Shown in pieces: positions 9,608 through 13,942 of a stretch of DNA of 35,838 nt; position 1 is the first letter of the stretch, and each line of letters begins with the position of its first letter. Source of the stretch: a virus. The DNA is taken from positions 1 to 35,838 of the IMG/VR virus record IMGVR_UViG_3300010970_000028; one strand, 5' to 3'. A model generated the notes under the pieces. It was not told the origin of the DNA. It made no database searches and saw only the letters and a list, made by a program, of their open reading frames with translations. Position numbers and translations under genes: made by a program.

Positions 9608-10077
9608 TTCGCCAACTCCCTCAAGTACCAGTACCCAATCAGCACAGCGTCAGCCCTGCCGTCGTCCTTTACGCGTGAGAACTTCTCGCTGTGTGATGGG
9701 TACAGTTCCATCGCCCGATGCCGAGACGCGTCCTTGCCAATGCCACGCGTGATGCCGCGAGTCCACACCGCCGGCTGCACGTAGGTGATCGGAACCATCA
9801 AGGCGGCCAAGACTCCCTCGACAAGCCCAGCGCTGCGGCCGAAGGAGAACATTGAACTCACGCCCTGACCAGGCATCGCGGCCACCTTCTCGATCACCGC
9901 GTGATCTGCCTTGAGTTCAATGATGAGAGTGGCCAGCCCCTGCGCAGATACTTGACGCTTCTGAGTCTTACCGCGCATCACGGTCACGACTGGCATATCT
10001 GCCACGGACTCAAGTACGCCGTCAATGTGCAGGGCGATGGCGCCGCTCATACCTGGGTCAATAGAGATGATCCTCAC
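9604..10077 (-). CDS. RuvC-like Holliday junction resolvase
   Basis: A 157-residue RNase H-fold nuclease. RIISIDPGMSGAIAL places the first catalytic acid at D7. AVIEKVAAMPGQG supplies E63, and the C-terminal KDDGRADAVLIGYW supplies D138/D139 and D143, matching the D-E-D-D order of RuvC. The length is close to that of cellular RuvC (about 170). It starts at GTG, which overlaps the repressor stop (GTGA) and has GAGG 7 bases upstream. It probably resolves branched recombination or replication DNA before packaging. Confidence 0.87.
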   Translation of the reverse strand: MRIISIDPGMSGAIALHIDGVLESVADMPVVTVMRGKTQKRQVSAQGLATLIIELKADHAVIEKVAAMPGQGVSSMFSFGRSAGLVEGVLAALMVPITYVQPAVWTRGITRGIGKDASRHRAMELYPSHSEKFSRVKDDGRADAVLIGYWYLRELAK

Positions 10078-10313
10078 TTGACGGCCTCATCCATGTTCTT
10101 GGCCAACTGCGTCATGCGTGCCGAGATCAGCGCGTCAACAGCCTCATTGAGCTTGATGATTGACGAGTACAGCGGGACGGTCTTGCCTGTTGTCCAGCGT
10201 GAGAGTTGGGCTGGGTCAATGTTGGCCACCCTGCCCACGTCGGAGAGCCGAAACCCTGCCGACTTTGCGCGATCCTTGATCGCTTGAATTGCTTGTTGTG
10301 TCGATGTGTACAT
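10074..10313 (-). CDS. XRE/Cro-type helix-turn-helix regulator
   Basis: A 79-residue protein. The HTH is visible in GFRLSDVGRVANIDPAQLSR, followed by WTTGKTVPLYSS, the usual shape of small Cro/CI-like regulators. The C terminus (ISARMTQLAKNMDEAVK) is helical. I chose the ATG at 10313. The frame stays open to 10505, but that extension would run through two hairpins and a plus-strand promoter and has no protein-like character. It is the first gene of the leftward block, next to the divergent control region, so it probably represses one or both early promoters. Confidence 0.8.
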   Translation of the reverse strand: MYTSTQQAIQAIKDRAKSAGFRLSDVGRVANIDPAQLSRWTTGKTVPLYSSIIKLNEAVDALISARMTQLAKNMDEAVK

Positions 10314-10358
10314 GATTGCGATGTTAACCTCAAGTTGATAAACAGCGCAAGTGTACAG

Positions 10359-10386
10359 AAAAAAGGGGAGAGCGTGAACTCTCCCC
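10359..10386 (-). terminator. Intrinsic terminator upstream of the repressor gene
   Basis: Read leftward, GGGGAGAG, a 6-base loop and CTCTCCCC form a perfect 8-bp stem followed by six T. It lies 45 bases before the repressor start, with no gene to its right on this strand. It therefore acts on a short leader transcript from the divergent region, as an attenuator, small-RNA 3' end or insulator. Confidence 0.85.
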
Positions 10387-10396
10387 GAAGGCAACT

Positions 10397-10417
10397 GCGA
10401 GGGAAACAAGACCTCGC
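10397..10417. other. Second hairpin in the divergent region
   Basis: GCGAGG and CCTCGC pair around a 9-base loop, 10 bases from the terminator at 10359-10386. A leftward transcript would carry both hairpins in a row, as in an attenuator leader or small RNA. There is no T run, so it is not a terminator itself. Confidence 0.5.
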
Positions 10418-10460
10418 GGTGGTATTTTACAGCAGAATAGTTGACTAAAATGTATTGGTA

Positions 10461-10490
10461 TTGACGACTTGTGCAAAACAGGATTACAAT
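10461..10490 (+). promoter_or_regulatory. Sigma70-like promoter of the plus-strand cassette
   Basis: TTGACG (10461-10466) and TACAAT (10485-10490) are separated by 18 bases; each differs from the consensus at one base. Transcription would start near 10497, about 38 bases before the first good start codon at 10535. Another TTGAC lies 20 bases upstream (10441), which could be an overlapping promoter or part of an operator. It is the only clear promoter in front of the fifteen-gene cassette. Confidence 0.6.
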
Positions 10491-10534
10491 TCTAATCAAT
10501 GACACACCGTCAGATGCAACTCAAAGGAAACAAG

Positions 10535-10693
10535 ATGACTGAACAAGAAGAAAAGAAACTCACGGAGCAGGTCGAAGACCTCGCCCAACTCATGCGCGAA
10601 CTGGCCATTGAGCGCCGCCAGGTTATGGAGCAGAATAGTTTTCTACGAGCCATTGGCTCACTTAACGATGGAGTACGAAATGAATACATTTAA
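10535..10693 (+). CDS. Small coiled-coil protein, first gene of plus-strand cassette
   Basis: A 52-residue, highly charged protein (MTEQEEKKLTEQVEDLAQLM) with heptad-like Leu/Val spacing, probably one long helix or coiled coil. I chose the ATG at 10535 because AAAGGA sits 7 bases upstream; an in-frame ATG at 10499 lies too close to the predicted transcription start. It is the promoter-proximal gene of the rightward operon and overlaps the next gene by 14 bases. No family recognised. Confidence 0.7.
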   Translation: MTEQEEKKLTEQVEDLAQLMRELAIERRQVMEQNSFLRAIGSLNDGVRNEYI

Positions 10694-10763
10694 GGACTAC
10701 GCCCTGGCCATCGCCATCGGCATCGCGCTGGCAGCATCACTCGTTCAGTGGTGGTCAACATGA
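10680..10763 (+). CDS. 27-residue single-pass membrane peptide
   Basis: A very short gene encoding a short polar N terminus (MNTFKDY) and one hydrophobic helix (ALAIAIGIALAASLV) ending QWWST. GGAG lies 6 bases before the ATG. Its start overlaps the preceding gene and its stop overlaps the next ATG (ATGA), so the translation signals are complete despite the size. Small one-helix peptides in early phage operons often bind or disturb host membrane proteins; no specific role is visible here. Confidence 0.7.
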   Translation: MNTFKDYALAIAIGIALAASLVQWWST

Positions 10764-11026
10764 GCGAGCCAATGCAAAAAGATATAGACGCTGTCGTGGC
10801 GTTGATGGCTCCACCCTCAAACAGCACAGGACTGCTCACCGCTCGTGACGTTCAGGACATCGTGCGCCGTGCAGCGTCAAAGGGAGCCTTGATCGGCTGG
10901 CTGGCCGCTGAGAAGGACACCCGCGAACGCATGGCACGGACTCTCGCCCAGGTCGAGTACGAGAACCAGTGCAACAAGGACCGCGTGAAGGAGTTGGAGA
11001 TGGAGATCATTGGGTTGCAGCGATGA
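10760..11026 (+). CDS. Unknown protein, 88 residues
   Basis: Starts at the ATG that overlaps the stop of the membrane peptide (ATGA), not at the earlier in-frame ATG at 10748. The protein begins MSEPMQKDIDAVVALMAPPS and has a helical region ARDVQDIVRRAASKGALIGW. It ends in a charged coiled coil (RMARTLAQVEYENQCNKDRV through ELEMEIIGLQR). No catalytic or metal motif is seen and no family was recognised. Tight coupling on both sides supports it as a real gene. Confidence 0.75.
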   Translation: MSEPMQKDIDAVVALMAPPSNSTGLLTARDVQDIVRRAASKGALIGWLAAEKDTRERMARTLAQVEYENQCNKDRVKELEMEIIGLQR

Positions 11027-11487
11027 GAAAGCGCAGCAAGTACAGGCCAAAACCACAACTGCCTGACCCACTGGCGTGGGTCTTGAACGGGCTAAAGCCG
11101 ATCGCAGAGGCTGGCATTGTGGATGTGCAGATCAAGAACCACAACGCCATCGACGCCCTTAGACGTGGCGCCGCCACCCGCCTTGACATCGACTACATCA
11201 TCGAGGCGTTTAACGTGATGGAGGCGCTGTCTCGGCTCGGCGTGGCCGCGTCCTACAAGGACGAGATCAAGACAGCGCAGGACGCGCTATTCACAGCCGT
11301 CAAGCGTGGCGTTGGCAGCGGACGGTACGTGCTGAAGGCAGCCGAACTGAACGCGATCAACTTGGGGATGGAAATCCACGACGCCCAGGTCGAGGTGACG
11401 TCCATTGCCACGATGGAGAAGGCGATGGACATCGTCCTCGGAGAGTTCAAGAAAAAACGAATGCGAGTCATACAGGAGACAACATGA
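11023..11487 (+). CDS. Conserved phage hypothetical protein, 154 residues
   Basis: Starts with MRKRSKYRPKPQLPDPLAWV at the ATGA junction; a longer version from 10969 would overlap the previous gene deeply. The rest is predicted helical (HNAIDALRRGAATRLDIDYI, EAFNVMEALSRLGVAASYKD, ATMEKAMDIVLGEFKKKRMR). There are no cysteines or membrane segments. The N-terminal basic and Pro-rich style and the order of helices resemble small proteins seen in early regions of proteobacterial phages, but no function is known. It could bind nucleic acid through its basic ends; this is a guess. Confidence 0.8.
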   Translation: MRKRSKYRPKPQLPDPLAWVLNGLKPIAEAGIVDVQIKNHNAIDALRRGAATRLDIDYIIEAFNVMEALSRLGVAASYKDEIKTAQDALFTAVKRGVGSGRYVLKAAELNAINLGMEIHDAQVEVTSIATMEKAMDIVLGEFKKKRMRVIQETT

Positions 11488-11690
11488 GCAAGATAAGAAT
11501 CCAACTAGTTGAAGAAGAAGAGACACCGACACCGTTTGAAAGGATGTGGGACTACTTCATCACGTTCCTAAAGTGCGTCGGCATCTTTGCCGCCATCTGC
11601 TTTGCTTTGGGCTACTTCAGCGTGAACCAGGTCCAGGCCAAGCAGTGCGAGTCAACCAAAACAGTTTTAGCAAGGAGCATATTCAAATGA
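11484..11690 (+). CDS. Small membrane protein, 68 residues
   Basis: A charged N terminus (MSKIRIQLVEEEETPTPFER) is followed by one membrane helix at about residues 25-46 (YFITFLKCVGIFAAICFALG). A polar tail (VQAKQCESTKTVLARS) follows. CAGGAG lies 5 bases before the ATG, which overlaps the upstream stop. It may interact with the host inner membrane. It does not look like a holin, which usually has two or three helices or a charged tail, and it is far from the lysis genes. Confidence 0.75.
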   Translation: MSKIRIQLVEEEETPTPFERMWDYFITFLKCVGIFAAICFALGYFSVNQVQAKQCESTKTVLARSIFK

Positions 11691-11875
11691 CACCAGCATT
11701 TCCGATAAACGCAATGACTACCGATGAAGGCATGACCCTGCGTGATTACTTTGCAGCCGCACTTGTTAAGTCAGGAACTGTATTCCCTGAAAGTTTTCCA
11801 ATAAACACACCGGACCGTGTTGCGAAACAAGCGTATGAATTAGCAGACGCCATGATGAAAGCGAGGGAAGCATGA
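11687..11875 (+). CDS. Small conserved phage protein (GMTLRDYFAA type)
   Basis: A 62-residue protein whose string DEGMTLRDYFAAALVKSG followed by VAKQAYELADAMMKAREA is a pattern I recognise from many small proteins of proteobacterial phages and prophages. No function is known for them. AAGGAG lies 9 bases before the ATG, and start and stop overlap the neighbours by ATGA. It is likely soluble and helical. The fragment upstream in the same frame lies inside the previous gene and is not part of it. Confidence 0.8.
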   Translation: MTPAFPINAMTTDEGMTLRDYFAAALVKSGTVFPESFPINTPDRVAKQAYELADAMMKAREA

Positions 11876-12042
11876 GAGTACGAGTAAGGTTTGACCCAAG
11901 AGGTTATTGGATTATTGAAACCAAACGCTGGTATGACTTTTTCTGGATGATTGCAGATTCCGTTACAGGAAACAACGCCTATGAACGCGCTCACTTTTAC
12001 GCACGGGCATTGAAGTACCCACAAACCGAGGAGATCAAATGA
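11872..12042 (+). CDS. Small basic aromatic protein, 56 residues
   Basis: A short gene found from its junctions. It starts at the ATG overlapping the preceding stop, with GAGG 5 bases upstream, and its TGA overlaps the next ATG. The protein (MRVRVRFDPRGYWIIETKRW ... ALKYPQTEEIK) is basic at the N terminus and rich in Tyr, Trp and Phe. It is probably a small beta-alpha fold. Comparable short proteins occur in phage early regions, but no function can be given. Confidence 0.72.
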   Translation: MRVRVRFDPRGYWIIETKRWYDFFWMIADSVTGNNAYERAHFYARALKYPQTEEIK

Positions 12043-12275
12043 AATTTCGTAAAAAGCCCGTAGTCATTGATGCTACGCAATTTTGGATTAACACGCCTGA
12101 TGGCTGGCCTGTTGGTGTTTACAAAGACAGCACTTCACCCACTGGGTATAGGATTGACACGCTTGAGGGCAGTTACGAAGTAACTGAGGGCGACTGGATT
12201 ATCACTGGCGTGAAGGGTGAGCACTACCCATGCAAGCCTGACATTTTTGAAATGACTTACGAGGTAGCAGAATGA
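12039..12275 (+). CDS. Widespread small phage protein (MKFRKKPVVIDA type)
   Basis: A 78-residue protein with the well-known pattern KFRKKPVVIDATQFW ... GYRIDTLEGSYEVTEGDWII followed by GVKGEHYPCKPDIFEMTYE. It occurs in very many phages of Gram-negative and Gram-positive bacteria, without an established function. The length is normal. GAGGAG lies 5 bases before the ATG. The motif TLEG...GDWIITG.KGE suggests a compact beta-rich fold. Its location among small early genes is typical. Confidence 0.85.
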   Translation: MKFRKKPVVIDATQFWINTPDGWPVGVYKDSTSPTGYRIDTLEGSYEVTEGDWIITGVKGEHYPCKPDIFEMTYEVAE

Positions 12276-12484
12276 ACCACATTAAACAAGTATGGCAATG
12301 GATGAGCAATCACTGGGTTATGCCTACCCCTGCGGAGTTAGTGGCAGAGGAACTGATACACGCACAGCGTAGCAAGCTGCGCCACCAGTCAGCACAGGAG
12401 TACCACGCAGCCATCGTTGCCTATAACGTAGCACGAATTAAACGCTTGGAGTCCCTGACCGTAAAGCAGGAGGTGGTGGAATGA
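12272..12484 (+). CDS. Unknown small protein, 70 residues
   Basis: A mostly helical protein (MNHIKQVWQWMSNHWVMPTP ... ELVAEELIHAQRSKLRHQSA ... YHAAIVAYNVARIKRLESL). The segment from PTPAELVAEELIHAQR to YHAAIVAYN resembles short phage proteins that begin with a P-T-x-x-E-L motif, function unknown. GAGG lies 7 bases before the ATG, and both ends overlap neighbours by ATGA. No membrane helix is present despite several Trp residues near the N terminus. Confidence 0.75.
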   Translation: MNHIKQVWQWMSNHWVMPTPAELVAEELIHAQRSKLRHQSAQEYHAAIVAYNVARIKRLESLTVKQEVVE

Positions 12485-12612
12485 CTACAACAGAACAATT
12501 GATATTGCTTGGGACAATTTGGGTGGCTCCTCACTCTCACAAGGGTTACGCCTTTACTGTTGGGGGCATCATTTTCCTCGTGGTTTTCTGCAAAGAAATG
12601 GGGTGGATATGA
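12481..12612 (+). CDS. 43-residue membrane peptide
   Basis: A short gene found from its junctions. It starts at the ATGA overlap with a very strong AGGAGG 7 bases upstream and ends by overlapping the next ATG. The sequence (MTTTEQLILLGTIWVAPHSH ... GYAFTVGGIIFLVVFCKEMG) has one clear hydrophobic helix near residues 25-37 and a weaker hydrophobic stretch at 7-16. It is the second or third likely membrane peptide of this cassette. The role is unknown. Confidence 0.7.
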   Translation: MTTTEQLILLGTIWVAPHSHKGYAFTVGGIIFLVVFCKEMGWI

Positions 12613-12818
12613 AAATAATCATAGACGTACCCGCTACGGCAAAAAAGAAACGCATGGTAACGGTGGCGTTAGACCATGAGGACGAGAAACTTGTTTCGTT
12701 TAGACCTGAGCAGTACTACAGGCTGGGAGAGCCTACAGAAGACATCGTGCAGGGCTACACCATCCTTTGTGCTTCGCGTACATACTGGTGTGCAATAGCG
12801 CAGGAGTGGCAAGAATGA
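12609..12818 (+). CDS. Unknown small protein, 69 residues
   Basis: A beta-rich soluble protein (MKIIIDVPATAKKKRMVTVA ... EDEKLVSFRPEQYYRLGEPT ... CASRTYWCAIAQEWQE). It starts at the ATGA overlap with a G-rich but imperfect ribosome site. The longer version beginning at 12519 lies inside the preceding gene in another frame. Two cysteines near the C terminus could form a disulfide or ligand pair. No family recognised. Confidence 0.72.
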   Translation: MKIIIDVPATAKKKRMVTVALDHEDEKLVSFRPEQYYRLGEPTEDIVQGYTILCASRTYWCAIAQEWQE

Positions 12819-13285
12819 AAGAAGCATGGAAACTTGCGCTTGAGGCGTTGGAATATTGGGATGTGCATGGAAAGTTACACCAACCAACAGAAGAAGCCAT
12901 CACCGCCATCAAAGCAGCCTTGGCACAGCAAGACCATTCCGAGCAACACCTCGATATGGTCAAGGCACAGCAGGAGCCTTGGTGCATGAAGATGAACGGT
13001 TGCACTTCAAAGTGTGAAGACTGCCCTGTCGAGGTGGTAGAGCAGGAGCCTGTGGCGTGGTATGTCGAACGCCAACACATTGGGTTTCGTGACCACGGTC
13101 TGAAGTACGGCCCATTTTGGAAACTGTCTGAAGCAGAAGAATTGACAGACCCCATCCACATTTTGAAGCCTCTCTACACATCCCCACCACAGCCCGAAGA
13201 ACGCAACTTCTGCCCAAGGTGCGGTAAACGCACAAGAGACTTGACCACGATTCATACTTGCACACCACCACAGGAGAACACATGA
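12815..13285 (+). CDS. Modular phage protein with C-terminal zinc ribbon
   Basis: A 156-residue protein with three parts. The N-terminal helix pair (MKEAWKLALEALEYWDV ... EEAITAIKAALAQQ) is a pattern I recognise from many phage hypothetical proteins. A central Cys-rich piece (WCMKMNGCTSKCEDCPVEVV) leads to a repeated QEP(V/W) element (AQQEPWC, EQEPVAWYV). A PLYTSPPQPEERNFCPRCGK tail carries a CxxC that with the later THTC-like cysteine could bind zinc. AGGAG lies 8 bases before the ATG. The recurring QEPVA and YTSPPQP pieces suggest module shuffling among phages. The function is unknown. Confidence 0.8.
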   Translation: MKEAWKLALEALEYWDVHGKLHQPTEEAITAIKAALAQQDHSEQHLDMVKAQQEPWCMKMNGCTSKCEDCPVEVVEQEPVAWYVERQHIGFRDHGLKYGPFWKLSEAEELTDPIHILKPLYTSPPQPEERNFCPRCGKRTRDLTTIHTCTPPQENT

Positions 13286-13395
13286 GCCTGTACAAATTAT
13301 GCGCAAAGTGCTTGGAGTCAAAGCCCCACGATGGCGGCGTTGATATGTCACCAACTAGATGGATATGCCAGCGCTGCTGGCTGCTTAGAAAATGA
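13282..13395 (+). CDS. 37-residue zinc-ribbon peptide
   Basis: A short gene found from its junctions. It starts at the ATGA overlap with AGGAG 5 bases upstream and ends overlapping the next ATG. The peptide (MSLYKLCAKCLESKPHDGGV ... RWICQRCWLLRK) has two CxxC pairs about 20 residues apart, the layout of a minimal four-cysteine zinc ribbon. Such peptides often bind nucleic acid or a host protein; no partner can be named. Confidence 0.72.
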   Translation: MSLYKLCAKCLESKPHDGGVDMSPTRWICQRCWLLRK

Positions 13396-13754
13396 TTAGG
13401 AAGGACAAGGCCATTGAACTGCTGACGGCCAAGGCGATGACGTCAGCGGAACTCAGCCAGGTCATCCACTGCGGACTCAGGGGGACGCGTGGGCTGATCG
13501 GGAAGTTGCGCAAGCAGGGCTTGGTTCACATACAGGGCTACAAGAGGCAGAGACAGGGCATTGCCGCGATGTGGCGTTACGGCATAGGCGTTGATGCTGT
13601 CAAGCCGCCGCCTGTGCCTGATGCGGAGCGTACACGCAAGAGCCGTGAGGGTAAGGGTGTTGAGGAACACGCCTTCGCACTGGCCAGGCAGCGCGCTAAG
13701 AAGTGGAAGATCAAACGCGACCCGTTGGTGGCCGCGTTCTTTGGGAGTAAGTGA
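13392..13754 (+). CDS. Winged-helix DNA-binding-like protein
   Basis: A 120-residue protein. The first 60 residues (AIELLTAKAMTSAELSQVIH ... GLIGKLRKQGLVHIQGYKRQ) look like a winged helix-turn-helix, with the wing at HIQGYKRQRQGIAAMWRYGIG. The rest is a Pro-rich linker (VKPPPVPDAERTRKSREGKG) and a basic C terminus (RQRAKKWKIKRDPLVAAFFG). Many phages carry a related small protein in the early region. It may regulate transcription or bind replication DNA. The start overlaps the zinc-ribbon gene by ATGA but has no clear ribosome site, so translation probably depends on coupling. Confidence 0.82.
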   Translation: MIRKDKAIELLTAKAMTSAELSQVIHCGLRGTRGLIGKLRKQGLVHIQGYKRQRQGIAAMWRYGIGVDAVKPPPVPDAERTRKSREGKGVEEHAFALARQRAKKWKIKRDPLVAAFFGSK

Positions 13755-13942
13755 TGAAAAAACTAGAAGACATGACTCAAGAAGAAAAAATTGAAGCCCT
13801 TAACACGCTTCAGATTTTCATTGAGTCAGCAGTTGAGTCAGAACAAGACGAACCAAAACTATTCAAGCATGAGACGGAACTAAGAATTGATTTAGTTCTT
13901 GTTACTCTAAAAGAGATTTTTGGTTTGCAAGATATTGCATAA
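13754..13942 (+). CDS. Small acidic protein, end of plus-strand cassette
   Basis: A 62-residue acidic, helical protein (MKKLEDMTQEEKIEALNTLQ ... ESEQDEPKLFKHETELRIDL ... LKEIFGLQDIA). I use the ATG at 13754, one base overlapping the previous stop, because GGGAG lies 6 bases upstream; a GTG one codon earlier is also open. Its last 41 bases overlap, tail to tail, the end of the convergent minus-strand structural gene. No terminator was seen between them. Function unknown. Confidence 0.72.
   Translation: MKKLEDMTQEEKIEALNTLQIFIESAVESEQDEPKLFKHETELRIDLVLVTLKEIFGLQDIA

Follow-up and report, generated by a model that had tools for sequence, protein, structure and literature searches.

A probable operon of exchangeable small phage genes joined by ATGA stop/start overlaps

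A chain of fifteen open reading frames (ORFs), each encoding 27-156 aa, fills positions 10535-13942 of the plus strand in the virus record IMGVR_UViG_3300010970_000028, whose whole length of 35,838 bases was analyzed (hereafter, the window) and which may represent either part of a genome or almost all of it. Comparison with related phages suggests that this cassette is probably one operon of exchangeable accessory genes, which would be translationally coupled and transcribed away from the replication operon, with ATGA as their common joint.

Organization of the cassette and coding status of its frames

The ORFs, designated g01 to g15, and the features upstream of them are listed in Table 1. 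ATGA stop/start overlaps were found at 12 of the 14 junctions, from g02/g03 through g13/g14; g01 and g02 overlap by 14 nt, and g14 and g15 share 1 nt in TGATG. The first-pass annotation had described fifteen plus-strand ORFs of these sizes with twelve ATGA overlaps, a 14-nt first junction, and a 1-nt last junction, and all of these were verified in the sequence. Its statement that the cassette is the sole plus-strand block was also borne out, no other such block being seen in the 35,838-base record. A codon-usage gene caller without a reward for overlaps also recovered this chain and placed ATGA at 11 of its joints. On the minus strand, this caller gave ATGA at about 10 of about 40 junctions and TGATG at several more. 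ATGA joints are common throughout the phage, yet they are strongly enriched in the cassette (12/14 vs. 10/40; Fisher p=1e-4). No tRNA genes were found in the window. A start of g01 at position 10499 (64 aa) was rejected on two grounds: it is the 52-aa form that relatives retain, and 10499 coincides with the predicted transcription start.

Table 1. Genes of the cassette and upstream features
Feature	Position	Strand	Description
HTH_3-like regulator	10074..10313	-	divergent; heads the replication operon; leaderless mRNA predicted
Intrinsic terminator hairpin (predicted)	10365..10386	-	in 56/64 relatives, 51-63 nt before the HTH gene
Predicted σ70 promoter	10461..10490	+	TTGACG-N18-TACAAT; consensus scan; conserved in most close relatives
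g01	10535..10693	+	52 aa, helical; relatives keep the 52-aa form; dN/dS 0.04 (n=10)
g02	10680..10763	+	27 aa, single-span membrane-type peptide; 14-nt overlap with g01; dN/dS 0.14
g03	10760..11026	+	88 aa, core gene; tandem duplicates in some relatives; aligned; dN/dS 0.12
g04	11023..11487	+	154 aa, helical bundle; phrog_20828, family without assigned function; dN/dS 0.09
g05	11484..11690	+	68 aa, one membrane-type span; 3' end with RBS and ATGA kept ahead of four different partners
g06	11687..11875	+	62 aa, phrog_2201 C-terminal type, family without assigned function; variable module
g07	11872..12042	+	56 aa, variable module; relatives 59-88% identity; dN/dS 0.22 (n=2)
g08	12039..12275	+	78 aa, phrog_419 (E=8e-29), very widespread family without assigned function; dN/dS 0.18
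g09	12272..12484	+	70 aa, mobile module; several right-hand partners via ATGA; dN/dS 0.14
g10	12481..12612	+	43 aa, membrane-type peptide; one relative (L171)
g11	12609..12818	+	69 aa; 9 viral loci; dN/dS 0.26 (n=4)
g12	12815..13285	+	156 aa, CPxCGKR zinc-ribbon-like tail; family often tandem; aligned
g13	13282..13395	+	37 aa, CxxC...CxxC zinc-type peptide; dN/dS 0.08
g14	13392..13754	+	120 aa, core terminal gene; predicted ArsR/MarR-like winged helix and conserved basic C-terminal helices; dN/dS 0.19
g15	13754..13942	+	62 aa, TGATG joint; 41-nt overlap with the end of a convergent minus gene; relatives 68-95% identity; dN/dS 0.08 (n=6)

Relatives were gathered from viral contigs by tblastn with g04, g14, g11, and g08. 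Among the 14 genes with a testable relative, 13 gave dN/dS values of 0.04-0.26 and had no internal stops; g12 stood outside this test, having no relative with enough full-length similarity. The small products, the few family matches, and the dN/dS above 1 of g10 in its only comparison would suit a reading in which the majority of the ORFs are not genuine and their chain arose by chance from an open frame pattern. However, relatives preserve the frames as well as the overlaps, and chance ORFs were rejected by the dN/dS of the 13 genes, so that this reading is extremely improbable. These comparisons indicate that the cassette frames are real genes under purifying selection in 13 of the 14 testable cases. 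In L171, the position, frame, and both ATGA joints of g10 are kept; the coding status of g10 is uncertain because this single relative gives a dN/dS of 1.9, from 27 changes.

The product types named by the first-pass annotation were recovered. Three membrane-type peptides (g02, g05, and g10) are recognizable from the sequence, and the zinc-ribbon-type tail of g12 is present, although a Pfam search with g12 gave nothing above the cut-off. The four-cysteine peptide corresponds to g13, in which C7, C10, C29, and C32 were invariant in 12 sequences, both CxxC pairs being conserved; it gave a weak Pfam match to zf-Tnp_2 and is a predicted zinc-binding peptide. The winged helix was found in g14, whose AlphaFold model has a mean pLDDT of 81 (about 86-94 for residues 1-70, with lower confidence in the C-terminal part) and aligned with 1uly in VIA-align (Z 11.7, rmsd 2.1, 66 residues). 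On the basis of this model, residues 1-66 are confidently predicted to form a winged-helix domain like those of ArsR/MarR regulators. The AlphaFold model of g04 (pLDDT 86) matched nothing in the PDB beyond generic helical bundles (Z up to 6.8). Relatives of g08 were found in over 580 viral stretches, mostly in other phages, and its matches to solved structures were weak. In a DNA search of cultured phages, the sole match was a stretch of about 80 nt of g08.

Core ends and exchange of the interior genes

Sixty-four distinct related cassettes, each spanning the HTH gene to g14, were compared. g03 was present in all 64, and g14 closed the operon in nearly all of them (relative position 1.00). Because the loci were recruited by g04 or g14, the frequency of g14 is biased, and that of g03 is unbiased. 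Judging from these sequences, the array is bounded by core genes, with g03 (g01-g05 in close relatives) at the 5' side and g14 at the 3' side. Since g03 and g14 form a conserved core, the block is not purely accessory.

The interior varied from phage to phage, with 85 clusters overall, many of which were seen once; the g02 and g12 families were present in 40/64 and 30/64 cassettes, respectively, and g08 adjoined g09 in one other cassette (L088). Gene order was largely preserved wherever cassettes shared families, and interior genes were gained, lost, or replaced singly. In L171, g11 and g12 are separated by an additional small gene that runs from ATGA to ATGA, a clean single-gene insertion or deletion. 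The first-pass annotation had proposed a comparison of cassette content among related phages, with random turnover without frame conservation as the outcome against it; the turnover was fast, and frames were kept rather than randomly lost.

Of the homology breaks between close relatives, 39% were at most 2 nt and 72% at most 20 nt away from a gene start or end, compared with 2% and 17%, respectively, expected for random positions. The corresponding values were 33% and 77% in distant relatives and only 17% and 64% in an intermediate clade, and the compared pairs behind all these percentages are not independent. Furthermore, the same gene ends were found before differing partners. The end of g05, GCAAGGAGCATATTCAA-ATGA, is followed, with small variations, by g06, g07, g09, or c11; that of g09, GCAGGAGGTGGTGGA-ATGA, by g10, g12, g13, or c55; and that of g12, AAGGAGAAGAACAC-ATGA, by more than 10 families, nearly all with the 4-nt overlap. 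Therefore, an upstream gene usually carries along the RBS of the gene that follows it. GGAG, GAGG, or AGGA was located upstream of 57% of the distinct ATGA joints.

When the cassettes of the relatives were called without the overlap reward, the overlap of exactly 4 nt was the commonest junction (263/589). Among distinct gene pairs, 89 were gapped and 65 were ATGA-linked, the gapped count being partly inflated by missed or mis-started small genes; a few 13-nt gaps listed before g14 reflect g13 genes that the caller had merged. In addition, a 33-nt linker, GGGGCTACGGCCCCAGCAACTGAAAGGAAACAA, containing a small hairpin and an RBS, precedes g01 where relatives carry extra 5' genes, and occurs twice in L002. 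Repeats of 25-40 nt across ATGA joints were found in L107, L119, L127, and L155.

Genome context, expression, and alternative explanations

On the HTH side of the cassette, the minus strand encodes the HTH regulator, a RuvC-type resolvase, a PDDEXK nuclease (DUF2800), a cytosine methyltransferase, a primase/helicase, and a terminase. On the other side, it encodes structural and lysis proteins, among which the portal, major head protein, endolysin, and holin were recognized. No integrase was recognized in the window. The nearest annotated record, MW202879 (an uncultured member of Caudoviricetes from Manatee Spring), has a 63% identical portal and the same layout, namely an HTH gene, a plus-strand block whose last gene is homologous to g14, and convergent minus-strand structural genes. 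However, most of the small plus-block genes of MW202879 are not shared with this cassette, and its homologues of g11 and g12 are located elsewhere, on the minus strand. The host is perhaps betaproteobacterial, because BFVD (predicted fold) matches of g04 come from phages of Iodobacter, Achromobacter, Ralstonia, and Bordetella. A search of bacterial genomes with g14 gave no relative, and therefore no prophage was found. With g04, the same search gave three contigs, from bins assigned to Verrucomicrobiota, Rhodoferax, and betaproteobacteria; of the window proteins that were tested, only g04, g06, and g13 had homologues on the Verrucomicrobiota and Rhodoferax contigs.

From the predicted consensus promoter, transcription would begin near 10497, read through all 15 genes, and diverge from the HTH-RuvC-replication operon. 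The −10 sequence is TATAAT in L006 and L007, and promoter-like sites in the region were no more frequent than in shuffled sequences in the consensus scan. At each ATGA overlap, a ribosome that stops at TGA could restart at the overlapping ATG, probably helped by a Shine-Dalgarno sequence within the last codons of the upstream gene. Comparison of the relatives shows that each interior gene behaves as an ATGA-to-ATGA module, which can be swapped singly while its neighbors stay in frame and overlapped. g14 may act as a regulator of the phage, and genes of the variable interior may fit the phage to different hosts during early infection. The stem sequence of the hairpin at 10365-10386 differs between clades with pairing preserved. 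An attenuator is disfavored because the HTH promoter lies between the hairpin and its gene; the hairpin could instead stop late minus-strand transcription crossing the cassette, and such transcription might silence the cassette late in infection.

The first-pass annotation had regarded the cassette as a likely site of host-takeover or anti-defense functions. Its genetic basis held up, in that the genes are real, the operon is apparently coupled, and turnover is fast with frames kept, whereas no sign of host takeover or anti-defense was obtained. Turnover with kept frames fits accessory genes at the phage-host interface, and an anti-defense or host-takeover role of the variable genes is plausible. 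A dedicated island in which most interior products block defenses or redirect host machinery would also accord with the tiny membrane, zinc, and DNA-binding-type products, with the fast turnover among relatives, and with transcription divergent from a likely early region. We nevertheless consider such an island rather unlikely: rapid turnover suits any accessory role, the widely shared g04 and g08 families carry no assigned function, and no known defense-related family was matched in PADLOC, Pfam, NCBIfam, or PHROGs. The PADLOC search of the cassette proteins, with a library of defense rather than counter-defense proteins, gave no match, and the other three gave nothing above the cut-off or families without assigned function. 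In 80 sampled cassette proteins from relatives, the assigned families were HTH regulators, zinc ribbons, and one dTDP-sugar epimerase, the rest being unassigned.

As for the joints themselves, ordinary genome compaction, in which ATGA is favored by phages, in-gene joints are selected against, and the overlaps have no role in exchange, is a substantial possibility, although short of an even chance. The ATGA and TGATG junctions of the minus strand agree with it, and homologous recombination would need more than a 4-nt joint. Gene-edge mosaic breaks are, moreover, general in phages and are often ascribed to illegitimate recombination plus selection (PMC3029335). On the other hand, compaction does not readily account for the enrichment of ATGA in the cassette, for one gene keeping an identical joint with many partners, or for the repeats across ATGA joints and the 33-nt repeated leader linkers of some cassettes. 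These repeats would instead favor homologous recombination at short boundary sequences (repeated linkers with RBS and start, some with a hairpin), aided by phage nuclease and RuvC, and both a PDDEXK nuclease and RuvC are encoded nearby. This is, however, unlikely, because most joints have only ATGA and a degenerate RBS in common, repeats of at least 20 nt are limited to 17/64 cassettes, with several inside genes or derived from paralogues, and the contribution of the two enzymes to exchange is speculative. By analogy with integrons, a gene-capture array, in which RBS-bearing overlaps and repeated linkers would serve as standard joints for single-gene insertion or swap between g03 and g14, seems very unlikely. 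Boundary breakpoints are expected from selection alone and are no proof that ATGA guides exchange; between guided recombination at ATGA and survival under selection, the latter is the simpler view. The operon of exchangeable, coupled accessory genes remains our preferred explanation.

Comparison with known systems

The cassettes offer a compact, ordered catalogue of uncharacterized small phage proteins between two conserved markers, which can help to reveal new phage-host interaction genes in any relative. Numbering at least 64 distinct examples, they also form an extensive natural collection with replacements of single genes concentrated at stop/start overlaps, so that boundary-guided and selection-filtered mosaic joints could be tested against each other statistically and in crosses. 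Replacement joints at gene edges are likewise seen in the mosaicism of tailed phages, in which a shared gene end of about 50 bp explains one insertion (PMC3029335); this shared end resembles the repeated linkers of the cassette. In contrast to that mosaicism, the joint of the cassette is mostly the 4-nt stop/start overlap itself, repeated along the whole operon.

The ninR region of lambdoid phages has been called "a chain of interlinked genes" (Kroger and Hobom 1982, described in PMC8022706). Like the cassette, lambda ninR consists of small genes packed by ATGA overlaps in one operon (about ten, mostly dispensable), and its gene content varies between related phages. However, ninR shares an operon with O and P, which lie upstream of it, and is followed by Q, whereas the cassette is oriented away from the replication operon and occupies the strand opposite to everything else. 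In addition, no PHROG or Pfam match carried the name of a ninR gene (ninA-ninI, rap, or orf), and the PHROGs that were matched have no assigned function. By analogy, the cassette may be regarded as a ninR-like interlinked chain in a different phage group, at another position and with no nin gene recognized.

Promoter and leader of the HTH gene

The ATG of the HTH gene, a minus-strand HTH_3-like regulator that heads the replication operon divergent from the cassette, lies exactly 7 nt past the end of a promoter-like TTGNNN-N18-TARCAT element, and a Shine-Dalgarno site is usually absent beside this element. Because of these two features, the HTH gene mRNA is predicted from sequence to be leaderless. 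This arrangement was found in 50 of the 64 related cassettes with the strict pattern and in 6 further ones by eye. The remaining relatives, clade L019-L029, carry a GGAGG-type site at the HTH gene in its place.

Conserved hairpins upstream of the HTH gene

An intrinsic terminator hairpin was located 51-63 nt upstream of the HTH gene in 56/64 relatives and is absent from clade L019-L029. Its stems vary in sequence among relatives, with pairing retained. It is possibly the end point for late transcripts antisense to the cassette. The second hairpin reads GCGAGGGAAACAAGACCTCGC in the window and GCGGGGGAAACAATACCCCGC in relatives, a compensatory change.

Features located in the window
Feature	Position	Strand	Remark
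Region of HTH gene with promoter-like TTGNNN-N18-TARCAT	10311-10350	minus	pattern match
Strong intrinsic terminator hairpin	10365-10386	minus	kept in most relatives
Second conserved hairpin	10400-10425		adjoins terminator; compensatory change
Cytosine-C5 DNA methyltransferase, 475 aa	6226-7653	minus	matches split
3'-end overlap of g15 (last cassette gene) and convergent minus-strand gene	13902-13942		41 nt

Other genes and related contigs

A long middle part of the methyltransferase separates its split matches. Homologues of g06 (phrog_2201 type), g13 (a CxxC...CxxC peptide), and g04 (a helical bundle) show identical arrangement and spacing in contigs L252 and L253, which had been assigned to Verrucomicrobiota and Rhodoferax bins; therefore, at least one of them is probably a mis-binned phage contig. 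In g08 (phrog_419 family), a stretch of approximately 80 nt at 12183-12276 exhibits 74-84% DNA identity to phages whose hosts are Staphylococcus, Gordonia, Arthrobacter, and enterobacteria, and such DNA-level similarity across hosts so far apart is unusual.
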